Shown here: one piece after another, positions 41 to 58,314 of the stretch | Position numbering within the stretch: position 1 is the first letter of the stretch | Layout of the letters: the number at the start of each line of letters is the position of its first letter | Source of the DNA: Streptomyces deccanensis | GTDB lineage: Bacteria > Actinomycetota > Actinomycetes > Streptomycetales > Streptomycetaceae | NCBI RefSeq assembly: GCF_022385335.1 | Contig: NZ_CP092431.1 | Location: 9,734,001 to 9,798,000, forward strand | Direction: 5' to 3' | DNA length: 64,000 nucleotides | Notes under the pieces: generated by a model | Seen by the model: the letters and a program-made list of their open reading frames with translations, nothing else | Databases searched by the model: none | What the model was told of the DNA's origin: nothing | Program-made: the position numbers and the translations under genes

Positions 41-77
41 GGCCCGAACGTCCCTGCGGACAGGGGCCGTTCGGCAC
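41..77. promoter_or_regulatory. Tandem OsdR/DosR-like boxes upstream of the first USP
   Basis: Two GC-rich dyads lie head to tail: GGCCCGAACGTCCC at 41-54 and GGGCCGTTCGGCAC at 64-77, centres 23 bp apart. The second is about 120 nt upstream of the USP start at 191. They match the pattern GGGNCCG-NN-CGGNCCC found before many genes in this window. Binding by OsdR is inferred. Confidence 0.55.
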
Positions 78-190
78 GCCCACGGGTCACCCGGCTCCTG
101 CCCGGGGCGGCGGTCCACGACGAACATCGAGAGTGGGGGGCCACCATCCGGCGCTCCTCGGTCACCGTCCGTCGAAAGGGAAGCGGAGCC

Positions 191-1021
191 ATGACCCACA
201 ACGATGTGGTCGTAGGAGTGGACGGCACCCTCGCCTCCACCAGGGCCCTGGACTGGGCCGCCGGGGAAGCGATCCGGCGCGGTGCCGAGCTGCGCCTGGT
301 GTGCGCCGCTTCCGACCGCGACGAGGCCGCGCCGATCCTCGGGGCCGCCGTCGCGCGCGTCCACCATCGGCACCCCGGTCTCCCGGTCCTGACCGTCGCG
401 GCCGAGGGCGGCGCCGTGCGGGCGCTGGCGCGGGAGAGCGCCGACGCGGTACTCACTGTCGTCGGCACCCGGGGCATGGGGCGCACCGCCGGCCTGCTGC
501 TCGGATCGGTCAGCCTGCGGCTGTCCCGTCGCGTGCGGGGTCCGCTGCTCGTCGTGCGCGGGGACCACCCGTGCGACAGAGGGCGCGAGGTGGTGCTCGG
601 CCTGGAGGACGACACGGACGAGCGGGCCGCCCTCTACGCCTTCGAGGAGGCCCGCCGACGCGGCGCCCACCTGCGCGTCCTGCACTCCTGGTCCCACCGC
701 CACCTCACCCCCGCACTGCCGCCGCTCGTGCCCACCGAGGGCCCGCGACAGGATCCGGCCACCTCCTACGAGCGCGTCGAGGAGGCCGTCCCGCGCTTCG
801 CCCTGGCCGCACTGCGGGAGCGGTACGCCGATGTCCCGGTGGAAGCCGTCACGGTGCGCACGGGCGCGCCGGAGGCTTTGCTGGAGTCGACCCGCGAGGC
901 CGGTCTGGTGGTCGTCGGCTCGCACCACCGGACGTCCGCCGTCGCCCCGCACCACACGCAGGTCGCCCCCGTCCTGCTGCGCCGCGCGCACTGCCCGGTG
1001 GTCGTCGTCCCCGCCGCGTGA
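191..1021 (+). CDS. Universal stress protein, two UspA domains
   Basis: A tandem-domain universal stress protein of 276 residues, probably cytoplasmic. Domain 1 begins at VVVGVDGTLAS and carries the ATP-loop pattern G-2x-G-9x-G-S as GTRGMGRTAGLLLGS. Domain 2 begins at VVLGLEDD and ends CPVVVVP, but its loop (VVGSHHRTSAV) lacks the full pattern, so ATP binding there is doubtful. The frame is open further upstream, but ATG 191 is chosen because homology starts there and AAGGGAAGCGGAG precedes it. A second USP follows after 26 nt, so the two are probably an operon read from the tandem boxes at 41-77. Paired-domain USPs such as Rv2623 are classic DosR-regulon members. Confidence 0.9.
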   Translation: MTHNDVVVGVDGTLASTRALDWAAGEAIRRGAELRLVCAASDRDEAAPILGAAVARVHHRHPGLPVLTVAAEGGAVRALARESADAVLTVVGTRGMGRTAGLLLGSVSLRLSRRVRGPLLVVRGDHPCDRGREVVLGLEDDTDERAALYAFEEARRRGAHLRVLHSWSHRHLTPALPPLVPTEGPRQDPATSYERVEEAVPRFALAALRERYADVPVEAVTVRTGAPEALLESTREAGLVVVGSHHRTSAVAPHHTQVAPVLLRRAHCPVVVVPAA

Positions 1022-1047
1022 ACCGTACGACTCCAGGAGGCCCACCC

Positions 1048-1911
1048 ATGTCCCGTGTCGTCGCCGTGGGTCTGGACGGATCGCCGGAGAGCCGCGCGGC
1101 CGCGGACTGGGCCGCCCGTGAGGCCCGGCTGCACTCCGTCGCCCTTCGGGTCGTGCACGCCGACGACCTGCCCCCGCACCATTACGTGCCCTTCGCCGGC
1201 GAACAGATCGCTCCGCCCGGCGCGGACCGTTCCGCCGCGCTGCTGCGCGAGTCGATCGCCCGGCTGGCCCACCGCCACCCGGGCCTGCCGATCGAGGGCG
1301 AGCGACTGCCCGGGCACCCCGCGTCGGCCCTGGTCGCCGTGGCCGAGGGCAGCGAACTGCTGGCGCTCGGGTCGCGGGGGCTGGGCAGGGCCGCCGGGTT
1401 CCTGCTCGGCTCCGTCGCGGCGGCCGTGGTGGCGCGGGCCGGACGGCCGGTCGTCCTCGTCCGCGCCGAAGCCGCGAGCGAGTACCGCACCGACGCGTCC
1501 GGGAACGCGACGACCGCCTACCGGGACGTCGTGCTGGGGCTGAACCTCGGCGAAACCGACGACACGGTCGTCGCGTTCGCCTTCGACGCGGCCGCACGGC
1601 GCGCGACGGGACTGCGCGTCGTCCACGGCCGCGGCACCCCGCGGCCCGGCGACAGCTGGACTGCCGGGGCCGAACAGGAGCCGTCCGTCCGCCTCGCGCC
1701 CTGGCGGGACAAGTTCCCCGGTGTGGAGGTGACCGAGGAGGCCGTGGTCGGCCGGGCCGGAAAGCAGTTGGTGAACGCTTCCCTCGACGCCTCCCTCGTG
1801 GTCGTCGGCCGCCGTGTCCGCCGGGCCCCGCCGGCCTCGCACATCGGTCCCGTGACCTACGCGGTCGTACGGCGCTCCCTCGCCCCGGTCGCCGTCGTCC
1901 CGCACCTCTGA
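1048..1911 (+). CDS. Universal stress protein, two UspA domains
   Basis: A 287-residue tandem USP. Domain 1 starts VVAVGLDGSPES and has an intact ATP loop, GSRGLGRAAGFLLGS. Domain 2 starts at DVVLGLNLGETDD and ends LAPVAVVPHL; its loop (GRRVRRAPPASHIGP) is the degenerate type usual in second domains of this family. The start is set by AGGAGG at 1035-1040, eight bases before ATG 1048. It follows the first USP by 26 nt and is probably co-transcribed. USPs of this type bind ATP and slow growth in mycobacteria (Rv2623); that role is inferred here. A strong hairpin at 1929-1960 ends the unit. Confidence 0.9.
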   Translation: MSRVVAVGLDGSPESRAAADWAAREARLHSVALRVVHADDLPPHHYVPFAGEQIAPPGADRSAALLRESIARLAHRHPGLPIEGERLPGHPASALVAVAEGSELLALGSRGLGRAAGFLLGSVAAAVVARAGRPVVLVRAEAASEYRTDASGNATTAYRDVVLGLNLGETDDTVVAFAFDAAARRATGLRVVHGRGTPRPGDSWTAGAEQEPSVRLAPWRDKFPGVEVTEEAVVGRAGKQLVNASLDASLVVVGRRVRRAPPASHIGPVTYAVVRRSLAPVAVVPHL

Positions 1912-1928
1912 CACCGCGCACGCCCGAA

Positions 1929-1960
1929 CCGCCCTGCCCCGGACAGGAGGGGCAGGGCGG
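1929..1960. terminator. Bidirectional hairpin terminator
   Basis: A perfect 12-bp stem (CCGCCCTGCCCC with GGGGCAGGGCGG) encloses an 8-nt loop between the convergent ends of the USP pair and ppdK. It has no U-tract, as is common in Streptomyces. Confidence 0.7.
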
Positions 1961-2008
1961 CGCTCCAGTGCGCGTGGGACGCGGCGGGACGGGATCGAGC
2001 GACACCGG

Positions 2009-4696: not shown

Positions 4697-4791
4697 GACA
4701 CCGGTCTCCTCCGGTTGGCTGCGGACTCGCTGCAGCTCCAGCGTCGAACGGACGGCGGCCCGCCCGGCAGGTGCTGTCCGTCCCCGGGGGC

Positions 4792-4805
4792 GGGCCGATG
4801 GGCCC
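4792..4805. promoter_or_regulatory. OsdR/DosR-like box between ppdK and the kinase relic
   Basis: GGGCCGATGGGCCC, an imperfect 14-bp dyad centred 102 nt upstream of the ppdK start and 141 nt upstream of the GTG of the kinase relic on the other strand. It may serve both directions. Confidence 0.6.
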
Positions 4806-4886
4806 TGGTCCGCTTTGGTCCGCTGTTGGTCTCCGGCCGCGCGGATGACCGTGGCTGATGACCGGAACGGTCTGTGCCCCCTGGCC

Positions 4887-4926
4887 GGGACAGCGCGGAA
4901 CAGCGCAGGACAGAGCGGGGCAGAGC
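4887..4926 (+). repeat. Four tandem 10-bp repeats
   Basis: Consecutive 10-mers GGGACAGCGC, GGAACAGCGC, AGGACAGAGC and GGGGCAGAGC share the pattern GGRACAGMGC. They sit directly upstream of the GTG that begins the kinase-head relic. One unit per helical turn could bind a protein on one face, but it may be simple slippage. Confidence 0.6.
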
Positions 4927-4939
4927 AGCCAGGAGCACG

Positions 4940-5128
4940 GTGGCAAGCTCCGACGACGCCCGTGTCCGGTTGCCGCAGTTGAGGTTGGACGAGCTGTTGG
5001 AGGAGTTGCAGGCGCGTCTGGATGCGGCGCGGGGGGCTCCCGGGGAACCCGGCGGGGGGAGGGGACGTCCGGCGTCGGGAGGAGGCCGCTCGGCCCCGTG
5101 CCGGGGACGGCCGGGAGTCCGACGCTGA
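4940..5128 (+). pseudogene. Relic of the 5' end of an OsdK-type sensor kinase
   Basis: A GTG-initiated frame of 62 codons. Its first 32 residues match the start of the sensor kinase at 13497: both begin with GTG-GCA-AGC and share LPQLRLDELLEELQARLDAA. The DNA is identical for 65 nt (4971-5035 equals 13537-13601). After DAARG the homology stops and a low-complexity Gly/Arg/Pro tail runs to a stop. No GAF, HisKA or ATPase domain is present. It is therefore a truncated duplicate, or one recombination footprint of the kinase gene. It could still be translated as a coiled leader peptide. It lies 40 nt upstream of the CBS-BON gene. Confidence 0.75.
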
Positions 5129-5168
5129 AGGTGTCGCAGTGTGTCACCCGAGCATCTCGGAGGTCGCC

Positions 5169-6697: not shown

Positions 6698-6717
6698 GAG
6701 ACGAGCAGGGACGAGCA

Positions 6718-6736: not shown

Positions 6737-6738
6737 GG

Positions 6739-12266: not shown

Positions 12267-12405
12267 GAGGAGTGCCTCCGGAGTCGAGCGCCACCGTCGT
12301 GCGACCGGTGGCGTACGGGGTGGGACGGTGCCGTACGAGGCAGCCGTCCCGGGACCGATGTCGCTCACCCGCTCACTCTCCTCCGCCCCCGGCCCTGTTC
12401 CGGAG

Positions 12406-12439
12406 GTGCCGATGGTCCCTCGTCGGGGCTGAACGGCCC
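12406..12439. promoter_or_regulatory. Tandem OsdR/DosR-like boxes on the adhE side of the adhE-osdR region
   Basis: GTGCCGATGGTCCC (12406-12419) and GGGCTGAACGGCCC (12426-12439) have centres exactly 20 bp apart, two helical turns. They lie 146-166 nt upstream of adhE. The 336-nt gap 12267-12602 contains these and two more dyads (next entry) and no gene. Confidence 0.6.
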
Positions 12440-12489
12440 GACCGAGCCGGCCGGCCGTCGTCGATCCGTCGATGGTCCGCTCGCGAAAG

Positions 12490-12518
12490 AGGGCCGACCG
12501 GCCCTGGCCGTTCGGCCC
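12490..12518. promoter_or_regulatory. OsdR/DosR-like dyads upstream of osdR (autoregulation candidate)
   Basis: AGGGCCGACCGGCCCT (12490-12505) directly abuts TGGCCGTTCGGCCC (12505-12518). They are centred 105 and 91 nt upstream of the osdR start at 12603. Regulator genes of the DosR type are commonly autoregulated, so these are plausible OsdR sites. Confidence 0.6.
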
Positions 12519-12602
12519 GGACACGACGAGGATTGCGGGTCGAGGCCGATACTGTCCGTGGCGGACAGGACGGCGTGAAGTGCGGAACCGAGGAGTGAAG
12601 CG

Positions 12603-13295
12603 ATGCCGGTCAGCGAGCAGCCGGGCCCGGACAGCCCGATCCGGGTCTTCCTGCTGGACGACCACGAGGTCGTACGCCGGGGTGTACGCGACCTGCTGAA
12701 CGACGAGCCGGACATCTCGGTGATCGGCGAGGCCGGCACCGTGGAACAGGCCCTGGTGCGCGTTCCCGCCCTGCGCCCGCAGGTGGCGGTGCTCGACGTC
12801 CGCCTGCCCGACGGCGACGGGATCACCGTGTGCCGGGAGCTGCGGTCGCGCATGCCGGAACTGTCCTGTCTGATGCTGACCTCCTTCGACGACGAGGAGG
12901 CGCTCCTGGACTCGATCATGGCGGGTGCGTCCGGGTACGTCCTGAAGCAGATCCACGGCTCGGATCTGGTCTCGGCGGTGCGCACCGTGGCCGCCGGCCA
13001 GTCGTTGCTCGATCCCAGCGCCACCGCCCGGCTCATGGCGAGGCTGCGGCAGGGCCCCAAGGAGGAGAAGGAGCCCGAGGCACTGCCGGGCCTGACCGAG
13101 CGCGAGCGGGAGATCCTGGCCCTGATCGGTGAGGGCCTGACCAACCGACAGATCGGTCAGCGGCTCTTCCTCGCCGAGAAGACGGTCAAGAACCACATCT
13201 CCCGGCTGCTCGCCAAGCTCGGTGTGGAACGACGCGTGCAGGCCGCCGTCATCGCCACCCAGGCCCAGGACAGGCTGCGGCAGGAAGGGCGGTAG
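12603..13295 (+). CDS. osdR: DosR/DevR-type response regulator, NarL/LuxR family
   Basis: A 230-residue response regulator. The receiver domain has the acidic pair LLDDHE (D19/D20), the phosphoacceptor D65 in [12 protein letters not shown]93 and K115 (GYVLKQI). After a charged linker (about 150-160), a LuxR-type helix-turn-helix occupies about 162-220. Its recognition helix [18 protein letters not shown] is nearly the same as in mycobacterial DosR, including K192, K195 and N196 at the base-contact positions. This justifies assigning it to the DosR/OsdR subgroup rather than generic NarL. The start follows CCGAGGAGTGAAGCG. The cognate kinase starts 200 nt downstream. It is the likely master regulator of this island, acting on the repeated GC-centred box. 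Confidence 0.93.
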
Positions 13296-13496: not shown

Positions 13497-15224
13497 GTGG
13501 CAAGCGTGGAGAGGGCCGGGGAGGCTCGTGTACTGCTGCCGCAGTTGAGGTTGGACGAGCTGTTGGAGGAGTTGCAGGCGCGTCTGGATGCGGCGCGGGG
13601 GACGCGGGATCGGGTGCACAGTCTGTTGGAGGCGGTGCTGTCGGTCGGGCGTGAGCTGGAGTTGGAGCAGGCGTTGCGGGGCATCGTGGAGGCGGCGGCG
13701 GTGCTGGTGGATGCGGAGTACGCGGCGTTGGGGGTGATCGGGCCGGATGGGAAGCGGTTGTCGGCTTTTCATACGGTGGGGGTGGGTGCGGAGGAGATCG
13801 CGGGGATCGGTGCGTATCCGGAGGGGCATGGGATTCTGGGTGAGTTGATCAGTCATCCGGAGCCGTTGCGTCTGGCGAAGTTGTCGGAGCATCCGTCGTC
13901 GTATGGTTTTCCGCCGAATCATCCGCCGATGAATTCGTTTCTGGGTGTGCCGATCCGGGTGCGTGAGCAGGTGTTCGGGAATCTGTATCTGACGGAGAAG
14001 CGGGGTGGGGCGCAGTTCGACGAGGAGGACGAGTCGGTTCTGTCGACGTTGGCGGTGGCGGCGGGTGTGGCGATCGACAACGCGCGGTTGTACGAGGAGT
14101 CCCGGTTGCGGGAGCGGTGGCTGCGGGCCAACGCGGAGATCACCCACAGCCTGATGTCCGGCGGCGAGCCCGCCGAGGTCCTCCAAGTGATCGCCGAACG
14201 GGCCAGGGAGATCATGACCGCGGCCCTCGCGGTCGTCGCGGTGCCGATGGAGGGCACCGAGTCGCTCACGGTCGACCTCGCCATCGGCGAGGGAGCGGCA
14301 GCGCACCGCGGGCTGGTACTGCCCCTGGAGGGCAACCTGATCGGCCAGGCCTTCTCCGGCGCCGCTCCTGTCACCAGCGCGGACGTCTCCGGTGACGACT
14401 CCGGCGTGACGGGCGCGCCGAGCCTCACGGGTCTCGGCCCCGCCGTGGCCGTTCCCATCGGATCGGGTGAGGGGACCCGGGGCATTCTGCTGCTGGCGCG
14501 CGCGGTCGGGCACACGGTGTTCACCGAGCCGGAGATCGAGCGCCTCCAGGGCTTCGCCGCGCAGGCCGCGGTCGTCATGGAGCTGGCCGAACGCCGTCGG
14601 GACGCCGAACAGATAGCGCTGTTGGAGGACCGCGACCGGATCGCCCGGGACCTGCACGACCTCGCCATCCAGCGCCTCTTCGCCACCGGGATGACCCTGC
14701 AGAGCGCGGGCCGCTTCATCGAACACGCGGAGGCCTCCGAGCGGGTCCGGCGCGCGGTGGAGGACCTGGACGAGACCATCAAGATCATCAGGTCGACCAT
14801 CTTCGGCCTGCGCTCACGCGAGGGCGCCACCGGTGTCGGTCTGCGGGCCCGCGTGGTGCGCGTGGTCGGCGAGGCGGCTCCGGTCCTGGGCTTCGCCCCC
14901 AGCCTGCGGCTGGAGGGACTGCTGGACACCGAGGTGCCCAAGGAGGTCGCCGACCATGTGGTCGCCGTGCTCTCCGAGGCACTGACGAACGTCGCCCGTC
15001 ACGCCCGGGCGTCCCGGGCCGACGTCGTGGTGGAGACCGCCGCGGGGGAGGTGCGCCTCACGGTGTCCGACGACGGGGTGGGCATTCCCGCCGAGGGCCG
15101 CCGCAGCGGACTGCGCAACATGGCCGAGCGCGCCCGGCAGTCGGGCGGCGAGTTGGAGACGACCAGCCCACCCGGCGGCGGCACGACCCTCGTGTGGCGG
15201 GTGCCGTCGAAGCACGCCCAGTAG
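13497..15224 (+). CDS. osdK: DosS/DevS-type GAF sensor histidine kinase
   Basis: A 575-residue soluble kinase: N-terminal coiled segment (LPQLRLDELLEELQARLD), GAF-A (about 40-200), GAF-B (about 210-355), HisKA_3 with phosphoacceptor H387 in DRIARDLHDLAIQRLF, and a HATPase domain with EALTNVARHA, DDGVGIP and GLRNMAERA. GAF-A contains SEHPSSYGFPPNHPPM; H142 there appears to align with the heme ligand H149 of mycobacterial DevS, so oxygen/redox sensing by heme is likely but inferred. GTG 13497 is the start, with GGAGGGG 7 nt upstream. Codon use is odd: about 15 TTG leucines plus TTT, TAT and CAT codons in the first 200 codons, against two TTG in the remaining 375. Confidence 0.94.
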   Translation: MASVERAGEARVLLPQLRLDELLEELQARLDAARGTRDRVHSLLEAVLSVGRELELEQALRGIVEAAAVLVDAEYAALGVIGPDGKRLSAFHTVGVGAEEIAGIGAYPEGHGILGELISHPEPLRLAKLSEHPSSYGFPPNHPPMNSFLGVPIRVREQVFGNLYLTEKRGGAQFDEEDESVLSTLAVAAGVAIDNARLYEESRLRERWLRANAEITHSLMSGGEPAEVLQVIAERAREIMTAALAVVAVPMEGTESLTVDLAIGEGAAAHRGLVLPLEGNLIGQAFSGAAPVTSADVSGDDSGVTGAPSLTGLGPAVAVPIGSGEGTRGILLLARAVGHTVFTEPEIERLQGFAAQAAVVMELAERRRDAEQIALLEDRDRIARDLHDLAIQRLFATGMTLQSAGRFIEHAEASERVRRAVEDLDETIKIIRSTIFGLRSREGATGVGLRARVVRVVGEAAPVLGFAPSLRLEGLLDTEVPKEVADHVVAVLSEALTNVARHARASRADVVVETAAGEVRLTVSDDGVGIPAEGRRSGLRNMAERARQSGGELETTSPPGGGTTLVWRVPSKHAQ

Positions 15225-20974: not shown

Positions 20975-21011
20975 GGGGCCAACAGGCCCTCACCCGAGGG
21001 CCGTTCGGCAT
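20975..21011. promoter_or_regulatory. Tandem OsdR/DosR-like boxes upstream of the GAF gene
   Basis: GGGGCCAACAGGCCCT (20975-20990) and GGGCCGTTCGGCAT (20998-21011) have centres 22 bp apart and lie 75-96 nt upstream of ATG 21079. Confidence 0.6.
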
Positions 21012-21078
21012 CTGCGGAGCGTCGCGGCCCCCGGCGAGGCTGTGCGGGCAGGCAGGAAGCAAGGACGCGGGAGGTGCC

Positions 21079-25571: not shown

Positions 25572-25986
25572 GATCACTCCCGTCGGGATGCGCGTCCTGC
25601 GCTCTCGTCCTCTGCTCCAGTCGTCCGTTTTCGTTCTTCGCTTTTCAGCGTGCGCCGGTTCCGAGGGCCGGTCCAGCAAGGGGAGGCGACGGCCGGCAGG
25701 GCGGCCCGAGCTGCGACCATGATCCGGCGACCGCGGGGGTCGACCGCGTACGGCCGAGGCGTGGGCAGGCCCCCACCTGGTGCCAGGTGAAGGCCTGCGG
25801 GGACGTGCCCGTCGGGGGTGAGAGTCATGAACTCACGGGCACGCCGGCCGATGACCCACGTGCGGCCACCGCTTCGCCCGAGAGCGGCCCCGGCACGAAC
25901 GCCCTCACATGGAGAAGGGGGGGCGGCGGGCCACCCGTAACGTTCGTGCCCGATTACAGCGTCGATCCGTCCGCGCCTCCGTTGAA

Positions 25987-26022
25987 GGGCCTACCGGCCC
26001 CGGTGCGAGGAGGGTCGGCCCT
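25987..26022. promoter_or_regulatory. Orphan OsdR-like boxes in a 560-nt gene-free gap
   Basis: GGGCCTACCGGCCC (25987-26000) and a weaker GGAGGGTCGGCCC (26010-26022) have centres about 22 bp apart. The gap 25572-26131 has no convincing gene. The nearest starts are DUF1876, over 400 nt away on the minus strand, and none on the plus strand before the antisense 3' end of the hydrolase gene. Either DUF1876 has a long leader or an unannotated RNA is made here. Also present is a 9-bp inverted repeat (25804-25812 with 25835-25843). Confidence 0.4.
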
Positions 26023-27478: not shown

Positions 27479-27586
27479 AGGCCACCTCCTCGTGCGCCTA
27501 CCGCGACGAAGCGGAGGAATCGGCGGGACGCAAGGATGCCTCCAGCCGTCATCTCCATTGCAGCGCGCCTCCTGCCGTCGCGCGAG

Positions 27587-27619
27587 GGGCCTTCGGCCCG
27601 GGTGAGGGCCGGACGGCCC
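27587..27619. promoter_or_regulatory. Tandem OsdR/DosR-like boxes between divergent genes
   Basis: GGGCCTTCGGCCC (27587-27599) and GGGCCGGACGGCCC (27606-27619) have centres about 20 bp apart. They are 115-135 nt from the phosphoribosyltransferase start and about 210-230 nt from the nitroreductase start. The 342-nt gap 27479-27820 holds nothing else I can identify. Confidence 0.65.
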
Positions 27620-27820
27620 CTCCCGGTGGCGGCGGCACCGCCGCAGACTGGGGACGAAGCGGACACTGCGAATGTCTCGCAGGGTGGGACGCCGCACCGA
27701 CGCGGCGGGCCCCGGGCGGCGGTGGCCACCGAGCCGCAGCCGCGAGCCGCGGCCCAGAGGGGGCCGGTGGAGGGACCCGCGGTCTCGGGCGGTCGACGCT
27801 CGGTGGGCGAGGAGGTTGCG

Positions 27821-30059: not shown

Positions 30060-30148
30060 CGGATACTCCTCCCCGCTCCGTGTGCGCGGAGCCGCTGGGC
30101 CTCGGAGGTGGACCCTGCCCAGTGTGCTGGCCCCCTGTCGGGCGCCGC

Positions 30149-30184
30149 ATGGGCCGTACGGCCCATGCCGGTGCCGGTCGGCCC
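30149..30184. promoter_or_regulatory. Perfect OsdR-type palindrome with a second box 20 bp away
   Basis: ATGGGCCGTACGGCCCAT (30149-30166) is a perfect palindrome, and symmetry extends two more bases on each side. GTGCCGGTCGGCCC (30171-30184) is centred 20 bp further. They sit between the divergent nitroreductase (start 30059) and USP (start 30320) genes. Confidence 0.75.
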
Positions 30185-30210
30185 GGTCTTCGAGGTGCCG
30201 CGCGGCAGTT

Positions 30211-30225
30211 GGGGCCGAAGGGCCC
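30211..30225. promoter_or_regulatory. OsdR/DosR-like box upstream of the USP at 30320
   Basis: GGGGCCGAAGGGCCC, centred 102 nt upstream of ATG 30320. Confidence 0.55.
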
Positions 30226-30319
30226 GACAAAAGGACTGTGCGGCCCCCTGCGGGGGAGGCGGCTCTCCGCGAGGCTTCGGCACAACAGGAGCCAGGCCCG
30301 AGCGCAGGAGGTACGCATC

Positions 30320-31976: not shown

Positions 31977-32021
31977 TAGGGCCGTTCGGCCCCGGTCCTC
32001 GGGCGAGGGGCCCGTCGGGCC
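31977..32021. promoter_or_regulatory. OsdR/DosR-like boxes upstream of the split-barrel gene
   Basis: TAGGGCCGTTCGGCCCC (31977-31993) is a near-perfect dyad centred 94 nt upstream of the start at 31891. GGGGCCCGTCGGGCC (32007-32021) follows and abuts the stop of the upstream CBS-BON gene. Confidence 0.65.
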
Positions 32022-32731: not shown

Positions 32732-32811
32732 GGCACTCGCCTCCTGAGGACGCTCGTGTTTCTCCAGTTGCCTTCCCACCCACTGTCCGCCGGTGGCGGA
32801 CCCGCCTCCAT

Positions 32812-32846
32812 GGGCCGGTCGGCCCCGGGCGGGGACCTGCGGCCCC
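32812..32846. promoter_or_regulatory. Tandem OsdR/DosR-like boxes between CBS-BON and GAPDH genes
   Basis: GGGCCGGTCGGCCC (32812-32825) and GGGGACCTGCGGCCCC (32831-32846) have centres 20 bp apart, 87 nt from the CBS-BON start and about 138 nt from the gap start. Confidence 0.65.
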
Positions 32847-32976
32847 TGCTCCCGGAGCCCGCGCTGCCACGACGCTGCCATCGGGGAGCCCGGCCACGAG
32901 GCCGGGGTGACCGTCACGGTCGCCGGTCCTCGCCCGAACCACGCGCAGTTACCGACCCTGTGAGGAGCCCACCGTC

Positions 32977-37600: not shown

Positions 37601-37838
37601 TCCGTCCCGAGTGGATCACGCGGTGAGGGACTCCGAGGCGGGCCGCACGCCGGCCCTGCCGGATGCACCGGCTGCCCGCAGGCCGACGCAGCGCGATCCG
37701 CGGCGGATCGGGCCGTTCCGGGACCGGCAGGGGCGTGTTCGCGCACCACGCAGGTCGGCCTCCCGCCGACCGCCCGCCGCGCGGGCCGGGCCGCCACCGC
37801 CGCGGCCGGGCGCTCCTCCGCTCCCGCCCCGACGCCGA

Positions 37839-37953
37839 AGGCCGACCGGCCCTCTCACTCCGCCGGGAGAACCAGGGCGAGGACGTCTGCCGCTGCCGAG
37901 GTGCCGTGGCGCCCCGGGCCGTCGGACTCGTCCGGTCGGGGCCGACCGGCCCC
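37839..37953. promoter_or_regulatory. OsdR/DosR-like boxes upstream of the acyl-CoA synthetase operon
   Basis: AGGCCGACCGGCCCT (37839-37853) and the stronger GGGGCCGACCGGCCCC (37938-37953). The latter is centred 91 nt upstream of ATG 38037, the usual distance. Confidence 0.6.
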
Positions 37954-42024: not shown

Positions 42025-42038
42025 AACCGGAGACGAGC

Positions 42039-42129: not shown

Positions 42130-44427
<2,298 letters not shown>

Positions 44428-44531
44428 CAGCCGGCCTCCCGGCCCCGCCGACGCGGCTCCGCTCGCCGGGCGGGCCTTCGGTCGGCACAGGGCTCCGATC
44501 CCAGCGTCTCGCGCGAGCGGAGTTCGGGCTC

Positions 44532-44591
44532 GGGGCCGCACGGACCGGGCAGGGGGACGGACGGCCCCTCCTCGGGCGCCCCAACGGTCCC
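44532..44591. promoter_or_regulatory. Three tandem OsdR/DosR-like boxes upstream of the ATPase
   Basis: GGGGCCGCACGGACC (44532-44546), GGGACGGACGGCCCC (44554-44568) and GCCCCAACGGTCCC (44578-44591) are spaced about 22 bp centre to centre, starting 112 nt upstream of the start at 44427. The rest of the 377-nt gap 44428-44804 has no recognisable gene. Confidence 0.5.
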
Positions 44592-46416: not shown

Positions 46417-46599
46417 GATCCCCTCCTGGAGCGGACCCGGACCCGGACCGTGCCCGGGACGCGGGAGCCCCGGGGCGGACGGACCTCGGTGAGGTCCCCC
46501 GGTCGAGTCGGACGGCTCCTCGCTCCCAGCCTCCGACGGACGGAGTCCCGGTCCCAGGGGCTGAACGGGTACCAGGGCGTGCCGGACGTCCCTCGCCCA

Positions 46600-46644
46600 C
46601 CCCGGCACGTACACGCCCCGGACCGGGGCGTGTACGTGCCGGGG
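46600..46644. repeat. 22-bp perfect inverted repeat in a divergent promoter region
   Basis: Arms 46600-46621 and 46623-46644 are perfectly complementary with one base between them, giving a very stable hairpin or cruciform. It lies between the divergent small-membrane-protein and USP genes, where no terminator is expected. The 366-nt gap 46417-46782 otherwise holds only the box at 46651-46666. Confidence 0.8.
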
Positions 46645-46650
46645 CGGGCA

Positions 46651-46666
46651 GGGGCCGGTCGGTCCC
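46651..46666. promoter_or_regulatory. OsdR/DosR-like box upstream of the truncated USP
   Basis: GGGGCCGGTCGGTCCC, centred 124 nt upstream of ATG 46783 and only 7 nt after the long inverted repeat. Confidence 0.55.
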
Positions 46667-51826: not shown

Positions 51827-51903
51827 GGATCGGCCTCCAGCGGCAAGCTGGTCGCTCCCCCGGTGTCGATCCCAGCGTCGGACGGCGACGGGGTCGAGCC
51901 ATA

Positions 51904-51973
51904 GGGCCGAATGTCCCTGTTCTGGCGTATTCCGGCCTTGAGTGGCCGGCCGTCAGAGTTCGGCCGCTCAAGG
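51904..51973. promoter_or_regulatory. OsdR/DosR-like box and adjoining inverted repeat
   Basis: GGGCCGAATGTCCC (51904-51917) is centred 85 nt upstream of the minus-strand start at 51826. A 13-bp inverted repeat with one mismatch follows (51936-51948 with 51961-51973, CCTTGAGTGGCCG). The 343-nt gap 51827-52169 is a divergent promoter region with no other recognisable element. Confidence 0.55.
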
Positions 51974-53039: not shown

Positions 53040-54684
53040 GCCCGGCGTCCCCGGGGAGCGGTCGCCGCGCGCGGCGGTGGCCGAGACCCACACCGCGATC
53101 GTCTTCTTCGCGGGTGATCGAGCCTACAAGGTCAAGAAGGCGGTCGATCTGGGCTTTCTCGACTACACCGAACGGGCGGGCCGTCGGGCGGCCTGCGTAC
53201 GCGAAGTGGCCCTCAACCGCCGCTTCGCACCGGATGTCTACCTGGGCGTCGGCGAAGTCGTCGGCCCCGCGGACGAGCCGCCCGAACCTCTCGTGGTGAT
53301 GCGCCGTATGCCGTCGGAGCGCCGCCTGTCCGCGCTGGTGCGCGCGGGCGCCGACGTCGACGAGGTCCTGCGTGCCGTGGCCCGGCGTCTCGCCGCCTGG
53401 CACGCGGCGGCGCCCCACGGCCGCGACGTGGACGAGCAGGGCACCCGCGACGCGCTGGCGTCCCGCTGGGAGGCGAGCTTCGCGCAGGTGCGCGCTTCGG
53501 CCGACGTTCGCGCTTCGGCGGAGGCCCGTCCTTCGGCCGAGGACGGTCCTTCGGTCGAGGCTCGTGCTTCGGTCGAGGCCCGTGCTTCGGACGAGGGTGC
53601 CGAGCACGAGGATGTTGCCGAACCCGGGGGCGGTGCCGAGCCCGGGGGTGTGGCGGAGGCGGAGCGGCTGGTGCGCCGGTATCTCGGGGGACGTGAGGCG
53701 CTGTTCGACTCTCGCATCGAACAACGGCGGGTGGTGGACGGCCACGGCGACCTGCTCGCCGAGGACATCTTCTGCCTCGACGACGGTCCCCGCGTACTGG
53801 ACTGCCTGGAGTTCGACGACCACCTCCGCTACGTGGACGGGCTCGACGACGCCGCGTTCCTCGCCATGGACCTGGAACAGCTCGGCGCTCCGGAAGCGGC
53901 GGCCCGCTTCCTCGCCCGCTACGGCGAGTACTCCGCCGATCCCGCGCCGCCGTCCCTGTGGCACCACTACGTCGCCTATCGCGCGTTCGTCAGAGCCAAG
54001 GTGTCCCTCATCCAGGCGGACCAGGGGGCGCCTGGGGCCCGCTCGTCGGCACGGCGGCTGATCTCGACGACCCTGCGCCACCTGCGCACCTCCGCCGTCG
54101 GCCTGACGCTCGTCGGCGGGTTGCCCGGCAGCGGGAAGTCCACGCTCTCCGGCGCCCTGGCGGACCGGCTGGGCGTCACCCTCCTCAGCAGTGACCGCCT
54201 CCGCAAGGAACTGGCGGGCATCCCGCCGGACAGGCCCGCGGCGGCCGCGTACGGGGAGGGGCTGTACACCGCGGAGTGGACGACCCGGACCTATGACGCC
54301 CTCCTCGACCGCGCGGCGCTCCTCCTGTCGCGCGGGGAGCCCGTGGTCCTGGACGCCACCTGGTCCACCGCGGAACTGCGCGCGGCGGCGCGGCGGGTGG
54401 CCGAGCGCACCTGTTCCGATCTCGTGGCCCTGCACTGCCAGGCACCGGACGAGGTCGCCGCGGCTCGCCTGAACGCGCGTTCCCCCGGGCCGTCCGACGC
54501 CGACCTCGGCGTCGCCACCGCCCTCGCGGCCCGGGAACCGCCCTGGCCCGACGCCGTCACGGTCGACACCAGCGGCCCACTGGAATCCGCCGTCTCCCAC
54601 GCACTGGCCGCCGTACGCCCCTGGGGGACGGACCAGGCCCCGGTCTTCCGCCGTCCCTATGTGGCGCAGCCGGAGCAGGACTGA
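53032..54684 (+). CDS. Phosphotransferase-P-loop kinase protein (Rv2004c-like)
   Basis: A 550-residue protein. The N-terminal part (about 1-330) is aminoglycoside-phosphotransferase-like: AYKVKKAVDLGFLDYT, catalytic-loop VVDGHGDLLAEDIFC and metal region LDCLEFDDHLRYVD. The C-terminal part (about 360-530) is a zeta-toxin/gluconate-kinase-like P-loop: Walker A VGGLPGSGKST, then LLSSDRLRKELAG and VVLDATWSTAELR. The same fusion is seen in mycobacterial Rv2004c; the substrate is unknown. A run of six 18-bp repeats inserts an RAS(A/V)(E/D)A hexapeptide array at about residues 154-189, between conserved blocks. The start overlaps the USP stop by 8 nt, so translation is coupled. Confidence 0.88.
   Translation: MTEPGVPGERSPRAAVAETHTAIVFFAGDRAYKVKKAVDLGFLDYTERAGRRAACVREVALNRRFAPDVYLGVGEVVGPADEPPEPLVVMRRMPSERRLSALVRAGADVDEVLRAVARRLAAWHAAAPHGRDVDEQGTRDALASRWEASFAQVRASADVRASAEARPSAEDGPSVEARASVEARASDEGAEHEDVAEPGGGAEPGGVAEAERLVRRYLGGREALFDSRIEQRRVVDGHGDLLAEDIFCLDDGPRVLDCLEFDDHLRYVDGLDDAAFLAMDLEQLGAPEAAARFLARYGEYSADPAPPSLWHHYVAYRAFVRAKVSLIQADQGAPGARSSARRLISTTLRHLRTSAVGLTLVGGLPGSGKSTLSGALADRLGVTLLSSDRLRKELAGIPPDRPAAAAYGEGLYTAEWTTRTYDALLDRAALLLSRGEPVVLDATWSTAELRAAARRVAERTCSDLVALHCQAPDEVAAARLNARSPGPSDADLGVATALAAREPPWPDAVTVDTSGPLESAVSHALAAVRPWGTDQAPVFRRPYVAQPEQD
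53491..53598 (+). repeat. Six in-frame 18-bp tandem repeats
   Basis: Consecutive 18-mers of the type CGYGCTTCGGYCGAGGCC encode a hexapeptide array. Copies differ by a few bases, so the expansion is not brand new. A Glu/Gly-rich stretch (GGGAEPGG) follows. Confidence 0.85.
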
Positions 54685-54926
54685 CGCGTCGGCGCCGCGC
54701 GCTGTGTCCCCCCCCCGGAGACGGGAACCGAGCCCTCCTATGCATCGACCGCGCCTCCCGGTGAACGGCACCGCGGGCGGCCTGTGCCCAGCCAGGTCCT
54801 TCCGGCCCTCCCCGAGCCCCGTCACGGACGCGACAATCAGAGAACGGACGTCGGCGCGGGCCGGTTCGGCTCACCGGGTTCGGCTCACGGGTCACGCCGA
54901 CGCGCGCTGCGGGAGGCACGAGAGCC

Positions 54927-56903
54927 ATGGCCGTCACCATCGCGCTGGCCGGAGACACCATGCTGGGCCGAGGGGTCGCCGAGGTACTGGCCCGCCCCGA
55001 GCCGCGTCCGCTCTTCACGCCGGCGGTGCGCCGGGCGGTGGCCGACGCGGACCTGTTCCTGCTCAACCTCGAATGCTGCGTCTCCGACCGGGGCGCCCCC
55101 GTGGACCTGCCCGGCAAGGCGTTCTTTTTCCGCGCCCCACCCCGCGCCGTCGACGTACTGGTCGATCTCGGCGTGGACGCTGTGTCCCTGGCCAACAACC
55201 ACGCCCTCGACTACGGCCCCGACGCGCTCCTCGACACCCGTGACCTCCTGGGCCAGGCGGGCATCCGCACGGCCGGGGCGGGAGCGACGGCCGGTGAGGC
55301 CCGCGCCCCGCTGATCATGGAGGCGGAAGGGCTGCGCCTCGGCCTCCTCGCGGTCACCGACCACCCCGCCGAGTACGCGGCGGCCACCGACCGGCCCGGG
55401 GTGGCCCACGCCGACCTGTGGAACGAAGGGGTGCCCGACTGGCTCACCGACGCCATCCGCACCCTGCACGGCGAAGCCGACCTGGTCCTGGTCAGCGTCC
55501 ACTGGGGCCCGAACATGACCACCCGCCCGGTTCCCCACGTGCGCCGCGCCGCCACCGCGCTCACCGCCGCCGGTGCCGACCTGGTCCTCGGCCACTCCGC
55601 GCACGTCTTCCACGGGTTCACCCGGCAGGTCCTCTTCGACCTGGGGGACTTCGTCGACGACTACGCCGTCCATCCGGCTCTCCGCAACGACCTGGGCCTG
55701 CTGTGGCTCGTCACCCTCGACACGAGCGGTGTGCGGCGCACCGAGGCCGTTCCGATCGCCCTGGACTGCTGCCACACCCGCCTCGCCGACCAGGCCGAGT
55801 GCGTATGGATCATCGACCGCCTCACCGACGTCTGCGCCGAACTGGGCACAAGCGTCACCGCGCAGGAGGGCCGTCCCACCGTCGTCTGGCCCCGGTGGAC
55901 AGATGGTCCAGCCCGGTCCGGCAGGCCCTCCGGGGGTTGGTCTGGAACAGTGGAAGGCGGTGGAGACGGCGCGGGACGGGCCCGCGTACGGCCGCGGCGG
56001 GCGAAGGAGGACGCGATGAGCCGTCCTGTGCTGGCGGGTGTCGACGGATCCGAGCGCAGCATGGCCGCGGTCGCCTGGGCCGCGCGGGAAGCCGTCCTGC
56101 GCGGCGTGCCCCTGCGTCTCGTGCAGGCCTCCCCGTCGCTTCCGGACAAGATCGTCCCGGACCCCGCTGCGGACATGCTGCACCGCGTGGGCGAGCGGGT
56201 GCTCCAGCGGGCGATCGCCGATCTGGGCGCCCGTTGTCCGGAGTTGAAGGTGCTGGCTGAGCAGACCGCCGAGGCACCGGCCGCGGCGCTCCTCGCGGCG
56301 GCCCACGATGCCGCGCTCCTCGTGGTCGGTACGAGGGGCTCGGGCGGCTTCGACGGCCTCGCGGTCGGCTCGGTGGCGCTTCGTACGGCCGCGGCAGCCG
56401 TCTGCCCGGTCGTGCTGGTGCCCCCGCGGCCGGTCGGGGGCTTCGAGGCAGGGCAGGGAGCGGTTCGCCGCGCGCAGGTCGTGGTGGGGTTCGACTCCCA
56501 TCGTCCCGTCGGCGAGGTGGCGGACTTCGCGTTCACGTCCGCCGAGACCCGAAAGGCTCACCTGCACGCGGTGCAGGCCTGGGCTCTGCCGGCCGAGTCC
56601 GTCTCTCCGCAGAAGCTGTTCGTGACCGAGGAGGACCGAGCCACCTGGGAGGACCAGGAGGTCCTGCGGGCGGCCGACGGCCTGCGACCGTGGCGGGACC
56701 GGTACCCGGGCGTGACCGTCCGCACCGATGTCGTCCTGCTGCACCCGGCGCAGGCGCTGCTGAACGCCGCCCACGCGACGGATCTGCTGGTCGTGGGCCG
56801 CCGTAGTGATCCGCAGGCTGTCGAGGGCCGGCTGGGGCCGGTGACCCACGCCGTGCTGCACCACACCCCGTGCCCGGTCGCGGTCGTACCGCACGCGGGG
56901 TGA
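54927..56903 (+). CDS. CapA-family protein fused in frame to a universal stress protein
   Basis: A single uninterrupted 658-codon frame. Residues 1 to about 325 are a CapA/PGA-capsule metallophosphoesterase-like protein: IALAGDTMLGRGVAEVL, LFLLNLECCVSDRG, SLANNHALDYGPDALLDT, VSVHWGPNM, VLGHSAHVFHG and LFDLGDFVDDYAV. No signal peptide is visible. Residues 326-363 are a Gly/Arg-rich linker that looks like translated intergenic DNA. Residues 364-658 are a complete two-domain USP with its own ribosome site. CapA-like Rv0574c is a mycobacterial DosR-regulon gene. Either the stop of capA was lost, creating a true fusion, or the USP is mainly made from its internal start. ATG 54927 matches the family N-terminus. 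Confidence 0.85.
   Translation: MAVTIALAGDTMLGRGVAEVLARPEPRPLFTPAVRRAVADADLFLLNLECCVSDRGAPVDLPGKAFFFRAPPRAVDVLVDLGVDAVSLANNHALDYGPDALLDTRDLLGQAGIRTAGAGATAGEARAPLIMEAEGLRLGLLAVTDHPAEYAAATDRPGVAHADLWNEGVPDWLTDAIRTLHGEADLVLVSVHWGPNMTTRPVPHVRRAATALTAAGADLVLGHSAHVFHGFTRQVLFDLGDFVDDYAVHPALRNDLGLLWLVTLDTSGVRRTEAVPIALDCCHTRLADQAECVWIIDRLTDVCAELGTSVTAQEGRPTVVWPRWTDGPARSGRPSGGWSGTVEGGGDGAGRARVRPRRAKEDAMSRPVLAGVDGSERSMAAVAWAAREAVLRGVPLRLVQASPSLPDKIVPDPAADMLHRVGERVLQRAIADLGARCPELKVLAEQTAEAPAAALLAAAHDAALLVVGTRGSGGFDGLAVGSVALRTAAAAVCPVVLVPPRPVGGFEAGQGAVRRAQVVVGFDSHRPVGEVADFAFTSAETRKAHLHAVQAWALPAESVSPQKLFVTEEDRATWEDQEVLRAADGLRPWRDRYPGVTVRTDVVLLHPAQALLNAAHATDLLVVGRRSDPQAVEGRLGPVTHAVLHHTPCPVAVVPHAG
56016..56903 (+). 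CDS. Universal stress protein readable from an internal start within the CapA fusion
   Basis: A 295-residue tandem USP beginning at ATG 56016, six bases after GAAGGAGG (56003-56010), a near-consensus ribosome site. Domain 1 starts VLAGVDGSERSMAAVAWA with the intact ATP loop GTRGSGGFDGLAVGS. Domain 2 starts QVVVGFDSHRPVGEV and ends CPVAVVPHAG. It is in the same frame as the CapA-like part with no stop between, so this entry is the alternative product of the 54927-56903 frame. Confidence 0.75.
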   Translation: MSRPVLAGVDGSERSMAAVAWAAREAVLRGVPLRLVQASPSLPDKIVPDPAADMLHRVGERVLQRAIADLGARCPELKVLAEQTAEAPAAALLAAAHDAALLVVGTRGSGGFDGLAVGSVALRTAAAAVCPVVLVPPRPVGGFEAGQGAVRRAQVVVGFDSHRPVGEVADFAFTSAETRKAHLHAVQAWALPAESVSPQKLFVTEEDRATWEDQEVLRAADGLRPWRDRYPGVTVRTDVVLLHPAQALLNAAHATDLLVVGRRSDPQAVEGRLGPVTHAVLHHTPCPVAVVPHAG

Positions 56904-56951
56904 CGCGGGAGCGGGACGTGGGCGACGGAACGTGGACGACAGGGCAGCGGA

Positions 56952-57977
56952 TCACCCGAAGAACACCTCGAACTCCTCGTACAGCGACGGATCCACCAGC
57001 TTCGTCCCCTTCCTGGCCTCGGTGAGGGGAACACGTACGATCTCGGTGCCGCGCAGGGCCGTCATCGTGCCGAAATCGCCGTCCTTGACCGCGTCGACCG
57101 CGTGCAGCCCGAAACGCGTGGCGAGCCAGCGGTCGAAGGCACTCGGGGTGCCTCCCCGCTGGATGTGACCGAGGACGGTGGTACGCGCCTCCGTCGAGGT
57201 ACGTCCCTCGATCTCCTGGGCCAGCCACTCGCCGATGCCGGACAGCCGTACGTGACCGTACTCGTCCAGTGACCGGTCCTTGAGGACCATCTGCCCCTCC
57301 TTGGGCATGGCCCCTTCGGCGGCGACGACGATCGGCGCGTATCTGATCTTGAACCGGCTCTTCACCCACTCACAGACCTCATCGATGTCGAACGGCCGCT
57401 CCGGGACGAGGATCGCGTTGGCACCGCCCGCCACACCGGCGTGCAGGGCGATCCAGCCGGAGTGCCTCCCCATCACCTCCACCACCAGGGTCCGCATGTG
57501 CGACTCGGCGGTGGTGTGGAGACGATCGATGGCCTCCGTCGCGATGCCGACCGCCGTGTCGAAGCCGAAGGTGTAGTCGGTGCCGGCCACGTCGTTGTCG
57601 ATGGTCTTGGGGACGCCGACGAGGTTGATCCCCTGACGGCTCAGCTCCGTGGCGGCGCCGAGGGTGTCCTCGCCGCCGATGACGACGAGCGCGTCCACCT
57701 CGTGCGCGGCGAGGGTGTCCTGGATGCGCCGAACCCCGTCCTCGTGCTTCAACGGGTTGGTACGGGACGACCCCAGGATGGTGCCACCGCGCGGGAGGAT
57801 TCCTCGTACGTCGGAGATTTCCAGCGGTACGACGTCGTCCTGGAGCGCACCGCGCCAGCCGTCCCGCAGGCCGACGAAGTCGAAGGAGTACTCCTGAACG
57901 CCCTTGCGGACGACGCTGCGGATCACGGCGTTGAGGCCGGGACAGTCGCCGCCACCGGTCAGCACTCCGACCTTCAT
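56952..57977 (-). CDS. pfkA: Phosphofructokinase with PPi-type active-site residues
   Basis: A 341-residue group III PfkA, converting fructose-6-phosphate to fructose-1,6-bisphosphate. Phosphoryl-donor motifs are GVLTGGGDCPGLNAVIR and VVIGGEDTLGAA; the catalytic loop is VPKTIDNDVAGTDYTFGFDT; EVMGRHSGW binds the sugar phosphate. At position 104 there is Asp (GGED) and at 124 Lys (PKTIDND). In characterised enzymes D104 with K124 marks pyrophosphate dependence, and G104 marks ATP dependence. A PPi-dependent enzyme is therefore predicted, which would be reversible. ATG 57977 follows AAGGGAGTG. Divergent from pntAB. Confidence 0.92.
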   Translation of the reverse strand: MKVGVLTGGGDCPGLNAVIRSVVRKGVQEYSFDFVGLRDGWRGALQDDVVPLEISDVRGILPRGGTILGSSRTNPLKHEDGVRRIQDTLAAHEVDALVVIGGEDTLGAATELSRQGINLVGVPKTIDNDVAGTDYTFGFDTAVGIATEAIDRLHTTAESHMRTLVVEVMGRHSGWIALHAGVAGGANAILVPERPFDIDEVCEWVKSRFKIRYAPIVVAAEGAMPKEGQMVLKDRSLDEYGHVRLSGIGEWLAQEIEGRTSTEARTTVLGHIQRGGTPSAFDRWLATRFGLHAVDAVKDGDFGTMTALRGTEIVRVPLTEARKGTKLVDPSLYEEFEVFFG

Positions 57978-58299
57978 GGCGTCACTCCCTTCTCTGTCGC
58001 ACATGCCGACCCCGCCCGGTTGCCGGCGGAGGCGGTCGGCCCGGGACGGGAGCCGGCTCACTCCAGCGGGTTTCCGGCTGGTGGGGTGGGGGACGGGTCT
58101 GCACCCCACCTCCGCGGACGCGACCTCCCACACTCGCGTGACTCCCTTCCAGCATGGGCGACGACCGCCCCGTCGGCGACCCGCCCCGGCGGTCCGTCAC
58201 GGAAGGGCGGTCGGCCTGTGGCCGGAGCCTTTCGGGGCCGCTCACCCCGCGAGGACAGGCATGCGGTCCCTCCTCACCACATGGCGGTGTCCTCCGGTC

Positions 58300-58314
58300 G
58301 TGCCGGGTCGGCCC
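58300..58314. promoter_or_regulatory. Candidate OsdR box in the pfkA-pntA divergent region
   Basis: GTGCCGGGTCGGCCC, a degenerate dyad about 175 nt upstream of pntA. The 505-nt gap 57978-58482 holds no gene I can support; further partial dyads (GGCGGTCGGCCCGGG near 58031, AGGGCGGTCGGCC near 58204) are weaker. Confidence 0.35.

Follow-up and report, generated by a model that had tools for sequence, protein, structure and literature searches.

Paired OsdR boxes and a -10-like hexamer at set distances from them around osdR of Streptomyces deccanensis

The osdR locus and its boxes

The window considered here, a stretch of 64,000 nucleotides of the Streptomyces deccanensis genome, contains the gene for the response regulator OsdR next to that for the kinase OsdK and, around them, a series of palindromes lying singly or in pairs near genes for Usp, PPDK-like, CBS-BON, nitroreductase-family and PNPOx-family proteins, among others (Table 1). 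OsdR is a DevR-like regulator of the NarL family that adjoins a DevS-like kinase and possesses an intact recognition helix: the KTVKN helix of DevR is kept, and K179, K182 and N183, which we take to be the base contacts, are conserved, as the preliminary description of this DNA had proposed. Approximately 8.3 Mb away lies a second island, in which an OsdK-like kinase is accompanied by OsdR-type boxes.

An intergenic site scoring at least 9 occurs within 300 nt of 23 called start codons, and for 14 of these 23 the nearest one is 85-145 nt upstream, the range originally indicated. The five pairs first named are all present, with starts within 2 nt of those given and spacings of 20, 20, 20, 20 and 21 bp. 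The far end of the series, placed at 58314, did not hold: the best site nearby, at 58304, scores 6.0 and was left out of the count.

Table 1. Boxes, accompanying hexamers and regulatory genes of the window, with matrix scores in the order of the boxes
Feature	Positions	Strand	Scores	Context
OsdR box pair, 23 bp apart	40-55/63-78	+	13.6/12.5	Precedes Usp gene (start 191; Pfam Usp); -10-like hexamer absent at expected offsets
Box pair 4770/4791 and GACGCT 4740-4745	4740..4806	-	7.4/15.4	Hexamer 45 nt past strong box; PPDK-like gene (start 4696, -; Pfam)
Weaker pair 5061/5082 and GACGCT 5121-5126	5061..5126	+	7.4/9.8	CBS-BON gene (start 5169; Pfam)
Box pair 12405/12425, 20 bp	12405..12440	.	12.1/12.6	Gap between AldDH/Fe-ADH gene (start 12266, -; Pfam) and osdR
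Strongest box of window, 12490-12505 (AGGGCCGACCGGCCCT), and GAGGAT 12528-12533	12490..12533	+	19.9	Precedes osdR; overlapped by weak site 12504; hexamer 22 nt past box
osdR, NarL-type response regulator	12603..13295	+		phmmer DevR 3c3w 272.8 bits; Response_reg and GerE
osdK, GAF-GAF-HisKA_3-HATPase kinase	13497..15224	+		Pfam; GAF matches DosT 2vzw and DevS 2w3d
Box pair 20975/20997, 22 bp, and GAGGCT 21036-21041	20975..21041	+	11.0/12.9	Hexamer 23 nt past box
Box pair 25986/26007, 21 bp	25986..26022	.	14.5/10.3	Nearest called gene start >400 nt away
Box pair 27585/27605, 20 bp, and CAGACT 27644-27649	27585..27649	+	9.9/17.5	Between divergent genes; hexamer 23 nt past 27605, towards nitroreductase-family gene 27821 (Pfam)
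Box pair 30150/30170, 20 bp, and CACACT 30121-30126	30121..30185	-	13.9/11.2	Hexamer 23 nt past box, before nitroreductase-family gene (start 30059, -; Pfam)
Box pair 30211/30232, 21 bp, and GAGGCT 30271-30276	30211..30276	+	13.0/6.9	Hexamer 23 nt past 30232 by manual count; Usp gene (start 30320; Pfam)
Single strong box	31978..31993	-	19.4	Precedes PNPOx-family gene (start 31891, -; Pfam); -10-like hexamer absent at expected offsets
Box pair 32811/32831, 20 bp, between divergent genes	32782..32876	.	14.7/8.0	From box 32811: GACAGT 32782-32787 (-) at 23 nt, towards CBS-BON gene (Pfam); GACGCT 32871-32876 (+) at 44 nt, towards GAPDH gene (Pfam)
Single boxes 37838 and 37938, both strong	37838..37953	+	17.0/16.2	CoA-ligase/acetyltransferase gene (start 38037; Pfam); hexamer absent at expected offsets from 37838
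Box pair 44532/44553, 21 bp, and GACGCT 44503-44508	44503..44568	-	7.2/14.7	Hexamer 44 nt past strong box; P-type ATPase-hemerythrin gene follows (start 44427, -; Pfam)
Boxes 46578 and 46651	46578..46666	.	11.5/12.6	Between 74-aa gene (start 46416, -) and Usp gene (start 46783)
Strong box 51903 and GACGCT 51874-51879	51874..51918	-	16.7	Hexamer 23 nt past box; precedes gene 51826 (-); Usp gene start 52170 on other side
Box 54794 and GACAAT 54832-54837	54794..54837	+	12.3	Hexamer 22 nt past box; PGA_cap-Usp gene (start 54927; Pfam)

Box identity and enrichment over chance

Scored with a matrix built from the site table of Urem 2016 (PMC5069765), the palindromes of the window match the published box of OsdR, the Streptomyces oxygen/stress regulator, the top site reaching 19.9 where the matrix maximum is 21.8. 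For S. coelicolor this 16-bp palindrome, AGGGCCGATCGGCCCT, is in print with gel shifts (Urem 2016, PMC5069765); OsdR binding is lost upon mutation and improved by phosphorylation of the protein (PMC5069765). The two species have in common the palindrome, the regulator with its adjoining kinase, the kinds of target genes (usp, PPDK, nitroreductase, PNPOx and osdR) and a similar distance from box to start codon (PMC5069765), while the second OsdK-like kinase within a detached cluster of boxes distinguishes S. deccanensis. This comparison supports the earlier reading of the palindromes as probable OsdR operators. Could the boxes be owned by another NarL-family regulator? The genome does encode at least 33 further proteins that match OsdR at E <= 1e-20, none above 44% identity (150 of the 171 candidates scored), but the published consensus and gel shifts fit OsdR (PMC5069765), and the strongest box of the window sits at osdR's own promoter, which makes such ownership very improbable.

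The pattern initially proposed, GGGNCCG-NN-CGGNCCC, is a blurred form of this box, in which the N at position 4/13 is really a conserved G/C. Its supposed retention of GGGAC arms was not borne out: among 193 oriented sites from relatives, the arm is mostly GGGCC, with C in 81% and A in 17%. The replacement of an A/T centre by G/C was only partly right, G occurring at the left central base in 25% and C in 1% of these sites, alongside A in 42% and T in 31%; all such percentages lean towards the published-site matrix because that matrix chose the sites.

How far do the boxes exceed the dyads that G+C-rich intergenic DNA produces by chance? The 10.5 kb of intergenic DNA in the window hold 34, 26, 19 and 10 sites with matrix scores of at least 8, 10, 12 and 14, respectively; the corresponding numbers are 18, 6, 2 and 0 in 71.8 kb of intergenic DNA from 20 sampled stretches of the same genome, and 3.5, 1.2, 0.37 and 0.12 in shuffled window intergenic DNA (300 shuffles); the density in the sampled stretches is thus not equal to that of the window. 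Coding DNA is not enriched, with 9 sites scoring at least 8 in 53.5 kb of the window and 56 in 328 kb of the control. Chance accounts better for the literal pattern, which over the whole window and with up to two mismatches occurs 77 times versus 61.2 +/- 8.3 in shuffles (2 of 100 reach 77), and which was rejected as a scanner for being too loose; genome-wide, its strict form has 13 places versus 5 for the reversed control. Restricted to window intergenic DNA, the same pattern is found 10 times with up to one mismatch (1.5 in shuffles; largest of 60, 4) and 31 times with up to two (14.0 in shuffles; largest of 60, 24), control intergenic DNA, 71.1 kb in this count, having 8 and 49. Some chance dyads had been expected from the outset; the literal pattern exceeds them clearly in intergenic DNA and only weakly when the entire window is counted. 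Under the published-site matrix, neither the controls from this genome nor the shuffles come near the window. Of the 13 strict places, moreover, 9 fall within the island plus its flank or within the second island, and chance leaves the pair spacing and hexamer position described below without reason. An origin by chance is scarcely credible, and we reject it for the set as a whole, though it may account for individual weak sites, 58304 for example.

Perfect G+C-rich dyads would also fold as RNA, and might thus be terminators or other hairpins forming stem-loops at gene ends. The sites concentrate, however, in divergent and tandem gaps rather than convergent ones: across 80 loci around OsdR orthologues there are 159 in divergent gaps (1.91/kb), 141 in tandem gaps (1.16/kb) and 4 of 304 in convergent gaps (0.10/kb), with 12, 5 and 0, respectively, in the window, where Rfam has no matches at gathering thresholds. 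We consequently rejected the terminator reading as well, its probability being just as slight.

Pair spacing and the -10-like hexamer

The operator itself was already known; what is added here is the frequency of pairs two helix turns apart and their fixed distance to a likely promoter element. The pairing, already remarked in the preliminary description, is strongly supported: taking as anchors the 22 window sites scoring at least 11, 13 of them are accompanied by a second site at 20-23 bp, against a null mean of 0.24 and a largest null value of 4 in 1000. The 10 distinct pairs so formed are the five first named and 40/63, 4770/4791, 20975/20997, 25986/26007 and 30211/30232. The 80 loci of OsdR orthologues, with 302 anchors, have 20, 32, 19 and 12 partners at 20, 21, 22 and 23 bp, whereas any other spacing between 8 and 70 bp has 0-7. 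The window thus has the tandem, closely packed sites that are a feature of DevR-type systems. Neither the spacing of pairs nor a constant distance to the -10 was found in the main text of PMC5069765, where the words 'tandem', 'spacing' and 'helical' are absent and 'cooperativ' appears a single time, among the references; Table 1 of that paper includes one unremarked pair, SCO0517, with boxes at -248 and -268. A literature search that included this main text and the accessible part of PMC9739842 found no spacing of OsdR pairs in print, and found no report of a GANNNT -10 for this genus. The 80 loci also show slightly more partners than usual near 31-33 bp, which the proposed geometry does not account for.

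Position-free motif discovery in the loci of OsdR orthologues found a -10-like motif beyond the box, 21-22 nt away in 63 of 182 promoters and 42-44 nt away in 40 of 182. Mostly [GC]AnnnT, the hexamer follows the box at 22-23 nt, a distance that becomes 43-45 nt if the partner lies on the gene side. When one half was used for training and the other for testing, 20 and 19 of 83 fell in the two offset windows, compared with 2.7 and 3.7 after shuffling. Hexamer offset is coupled to pair orientation: where the partner is on the far side, the hexamer lies at 20-23 in 16 of 30 cases and at 41-46 in 2 of 30, and where it is on the gene side, in 1 of 33 and 17 of 33, respectively (p 6e-7 on cluster representatives). 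Because related promoters could inflate such counts, promoters with 55% ungapped identity in their flanks were grouped, which kept 169 of 193 and left the result unchanged. Counting against the paired arrangement, 105 of 182 promoters in relatives are without a partner scoring at least 3 at 20-23 bp, though the hexamer is at its expected place in 58 of them. When the upstream side was searched for motifs, a box-like one was returned too (log-likelihood 111, versus 149 downstream and 27 shuffled); hence it is the position peak, not the likelihood, that carries the argument for a -10.

A first search of the own genome, for TAnnnT, gave one match among 36 promoters. Since the discovered motif is itself T-poor at hexamer base 1, the count was redone without a matrix as plain NANNNT. 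In the own genome, NANNNT at offsets 22, 23 and 43-45 occurs in 23 of 171 tests versus 34 of 2204; 15 of the 36 promoters with a box have no such hexamer at the expected offsets, and only 13 of 33 have their best match to the trained -10 matrix where it is expected. In streptomycete loci T at the first base is equally rare at the peak offsets (3 of 135) and outside the peaks (4 of 141), so that the claim is one of no selection for T, not of its avoidance. Offset 25 holds 12 hexamers too, which the expected offsets do not account for.

Proposed activation and its relation to DevR

How would such an arrangement work? Very probably, phosphorylated OsdR (OsdR~P) occupies the paired boxes in a cooperative manner and acts as an activator, with one of its sites over -35, within an oxygen/NO-responsive island of stress and dormancy genes. 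OsdK would phosphorylate OsdR, and dimers of OsdR~P would then occupy two boxes 20-23 bp apart, often one strong and one weaker; this spacing, which points to cooperativity, approximates two helical turns and would therefore place both boxes on one face of the DNA. The gene-proximal box would be centred near -43, over the -35 region, a position that the hexamer geometry fits, and from there OsdR would help RNA polymerase to use the weak -10, [GC]AnnnT, whose first position shows no selection for T. Where genes diverge, a single pair could serve both promoters. For S. deccanensis, OsdR binding, activation and start sites are predicted on this basis.

OsdR might instead bind the sites and mainly repress here, given that some genes rise in the osdR mutant of S. 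coelicolor (PMC5069765 section 12) and that, at some promoters, a protein-bound box near -43 might stand in the way of polymerase. Yet the usp and nar2 genes fall in the same mutant (PMC5069765 section 12), the lack of a selected T at the -10 is as expected for activator-dependent promoters, and mycobacterial DevR activates from the same arrangement of tandem sites bound cooperatively, with the proximal site over -35 and an atypical -10 (PMC3029386, PMC4973870, PMC5360333). Predominant repression is thus very unlikely, and activation by OsdR from paired boxes is the reading that we retain.

In broader terms, we see even chances that OsdR and DevR promoters constitute one rigid composite element, with boxes 20-23 bp apart and 22-23 nt to an AnnnT -10, kept between Streptomycetaceae and the DevR-like family, that the first T is not selected in Streptomycetaceae, and that the second, detached island has its own heme-type kinase and is wired by the same boxes to the single OsdR, two kinases thus sharing one regulator as in DevS/DosT/DevR. 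Without selection for that T, streptomycete promoters should be nearly silent in the absence of the regulator. The geometry provides a testable promoter rule: it identifies the proximal box, predicts the position of the transcription start and singles out, among many G+C-rich dyads, those that merit testing. Dormancy control in DevR-bearing bacteria and the control of stress and development in streptomycetes may moreover have retained a common mode of activation while the arms of the box drifted.

An initial DosR consensus yielded no more than 18 anchors across 30 loci, each 3.6 kb long; the DevR-like set used here consists of 20 of those 30 genomes at 20 kb, with a motif refined from two seeds to the same matrix. 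Its geometry resembles that of the streptomycete loci: its 78 anchors have 7, 8 and 3 partners scoring at least 5 at 21, 22 and 23 bp, and NANNNT lies at 22 and 23 nt in 27 and 10 of 83; the -10 motif search, on only 31 promoters, placed 12 at offsets 22-23. T is the first hexamer base in 15 of 37 cases at offsets 22-23, in contrast with its rarity at the streptomycete peak offsets reported above. The arms are GGG(A/C)C(C/T) in DevR-like loci and mostly GGGCCG in streptomycete boxes, and the residue after the helix Asn is Tyr in 20 of 20 DevR-like sequences, whereas in streptomycetes it is His in 62, Asn in 8 and Ile in 1 of 71 (15 commonest types).

Identity and distribution of the palindrome

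The palindrome recurring upstream of genes in the window is a real and already known operator, the OsdR box. Its proposal as the operator of OsdR in the preliminary description fits the box AGGGCCGATCGGCCCT, which Urem et al. 2016 derived from the osdR upstream regions of 12 Streptomyces species (PMC5069765), as well as the intergenic enrichment of the motif over controls and shuffles. The same paper lists S. coelicolor OsdR sites and demonstrates binding, which mutation weakened or abolished; our scanning matrix, symmetric and independent of the window, was built from the 26 sequences of its Table 1. Gene calls come from a codon model built for this analysis, so that start codons are estimates.

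With this matrix, the intergenic DNA of the window (10.5 kb) holds 34, 26, 19 and 10 sites scoring at least 8, 10, 12 and 14, respectively, versus 18, 6, 2 and 0 in the 71.8 kb of intergenic DNA contained in twenty 20-kb control stretches of the same genome; the two densities are not equal, as the counts at 12 illustrate. The genome is a single contig of 10.1 Mb, of which the window spans bases 9,734,001-9,798,000. Shuffled intergenic segments of the window gave 3.5, 1.2, 0.37 and 0.12 sites at these thresholds, and the coding DNA of window and controls showed no box enrichment. The literal pattern first described, GGGNCCG-NN-CGGNCCC, is clear in the intergenic DNA of the window but barely exceeds shuffles over the window as a whole. 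The strict pattern RGGGMCGDHCGKCCCY occurs at 13 places genome-wide, seven of them at 9.722-9.779 Mb (five in the window, two in its upstream flank), two in a second island and four elsewhere; since its reversed control gives 5, the four outlying places may be chance.

Could such palindromes be terminators instead? This reading was rejected. Across 80 loci centred on OsdR orthologues, typed gaps contain 304 sites, of which 159 fall between divergent genes (1.91 per kb), 141 between tandem genes (1.16 per kb) and only 4 between convergent ones (0.10 per kb); the window's own counts are 12, 5 and 0 in the same order.

The description of the box as G/C-centred was half right. In 193 oriented sites of relatives, figures that lean towards the matrix because it chose the sites, the arms are mostly GGGCC, with GGGAC a minority (17% A), but the two central bases remain A/T-rich; hence the drift to G/C sits in the box shoulders. 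For DevR-like loci, RGGG(A/C)C(C/T) arms around an A/T centre emerged whether motif refinement started from a DosR seed or an OsdR one.

Box pairs and promoter geometry

That boxes often stand in pairs two turns apart was borne out. A partner scoring at least 6 lies at 20-23 bp from 13 of the 22 window sites scoring at least 11, forming 10 distinct pairs, versus a mean of 0.24 with shuffled flanks (maximum 4 in 1000); other bins hold none (16-19, 24-27, 32-35 and 36-39) or two each (28-31 and 40-43). The peak recurs in the 80 loci, which are the best of 584 confirmed stretches, come from named genomes and are all centred on osdR. Their 302 non-redundant anchors have 20, 32, 19 and 12 partners at 20, 21, 22 and 23 bp, while any other spacing between 8 and 70 bp yields 0-7. 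These loci also show a slight surplus of partners near 31-33 bp. Twenty DevR-like loci, probably from Mycobacteriaceae given that their regulators are 79-96% identical to DevR, show 7, 8 and 3 partners at 21, 22 and 23 bp, with 3 more at 33 bp and 0-2 at any other spacing. Spacing of about two helical turns would place both OsdR dimers on one DNA face.

Motif discovery downstream of oriented boxes in relatives, with position left out of the model, found a -10-like motif, roughly [GC]GA[CG]G[CA]T[GC]GA, starting 21-22 nt past the box in 63 of 182 promoters and 42-44 nt past it in 40. When half the loci were used for training and half for testing, 20 of 83 promoters had it at 20-23 nt and 19 at 41-46 nt (shuffled, 2.7 and 3.7), and 22 had no match. 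There are two distances because the partner box lies on either the far or the gene side: promoters with a far-side partner carry the -10 at 20-23 nt in 16/30 cases and at 41-46 nt in 2/30, those with a gene-side partner in 1/33 and 17/33 (p 6e-7, cluster representatives).

Plain NANNNT hexamers peak at offsets 22 (42 hexamers) and 23 (40), then again at 43, 44 and 45 (14, 20 and 19), in 178-190 promoters each, with 0-7 per offset away from these peaks, except for 12 at offset 25. This small extra peak, seen in the 80 loci, has G as first base in 11 of its hexamers. First-base makeup is alike inside (G 73, C 45, A 14, T 3; n=135) and outside the peaks (G 79, C 40, A 18, T 4; n=141), and therefore no T is selected at this base; for comparison, PMC6448022 gives first-base T in 63% of M. 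smegmatis ANNNT promoters. In the window, its upstream flank and the second island, NANNNT occurs at expected offsets in 23/171 tests versus 34/2204, and 21 of 36 box promoters carry one 21-24 or 42-46 nt past the box, the other 15 having none at these distances.

If the hexamer's first base is taken as -12, the proximal box would be centred near -43 and the distal near -64. On these predicted start sites, the layout would match that reported for DosR promoters in PMC5360333, PMC3029386 and PMC4973870, namely tandem sites bound cooperatively, the proximal one overlying -35, and an atypical -10. We found no earlier report of such pair spacing and promoter geometry for OsdR in searchable papers.

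Regulator, kinases and the wider island

The genome encodes a single close OsdR, whose recognition helix (KTVKNH) is nearly the same as that of DevR (KTVKNY); 33 further matches are at most 44% identical. A threshold of E <= 1e-40 gave two OsdK-type kinases: osdK itself, in the window, and a second, 53% identical to it, at 1.459-1.461 Mb. Each has GAF matches to DevS and DosT and retains HPPM, whose His binds heme. Relatives of the second kinase are frequent in the genus, where 52 of 61 genomes sampled have one or more matches at E <= 1e-100 and several have two to four, a search that osdK itself also matches. The tRNA-Ser (gga) may be a false call, since Rfam at gathering threshold has no match for it.

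Features of the window, its upstream flank (stretch L023) and the second island (stretch L021)
Feature	Coordinates	Remark
P-type ATPase fused to C-terminal hemerythrin domain	window 42130-44427	single gene, behind box pair
PGA_cap (capsule synthesis type) fused to Usp domains	window 54927-56903	single gene, behind box
tRNA-Ser (gga)	window 62941-63040	ARAGORN; overlaps called ORF 62712-63104
Upstream extension of island	G000:C1:9722096-9733960 (L023:8096-19960)	4 more intergenic boxes >=14, before MCRA-family gene, gene starting L023:14612, Usp-like gene and STAS-domain gene
Second island	G000:C1:1459498-1473510 (L021:4498-18510)	detached OsdR-type box cluster, ~8.3 Mb from window

The genome-wide search for OsdR placed no close match in the second island, which has 6 intergenic sites scoring at least 12 in 20 kb and carries genes for the OsdK-like kinase, Usp, phosphoketolase, PNPOx-family and cNMP-binding proteins.
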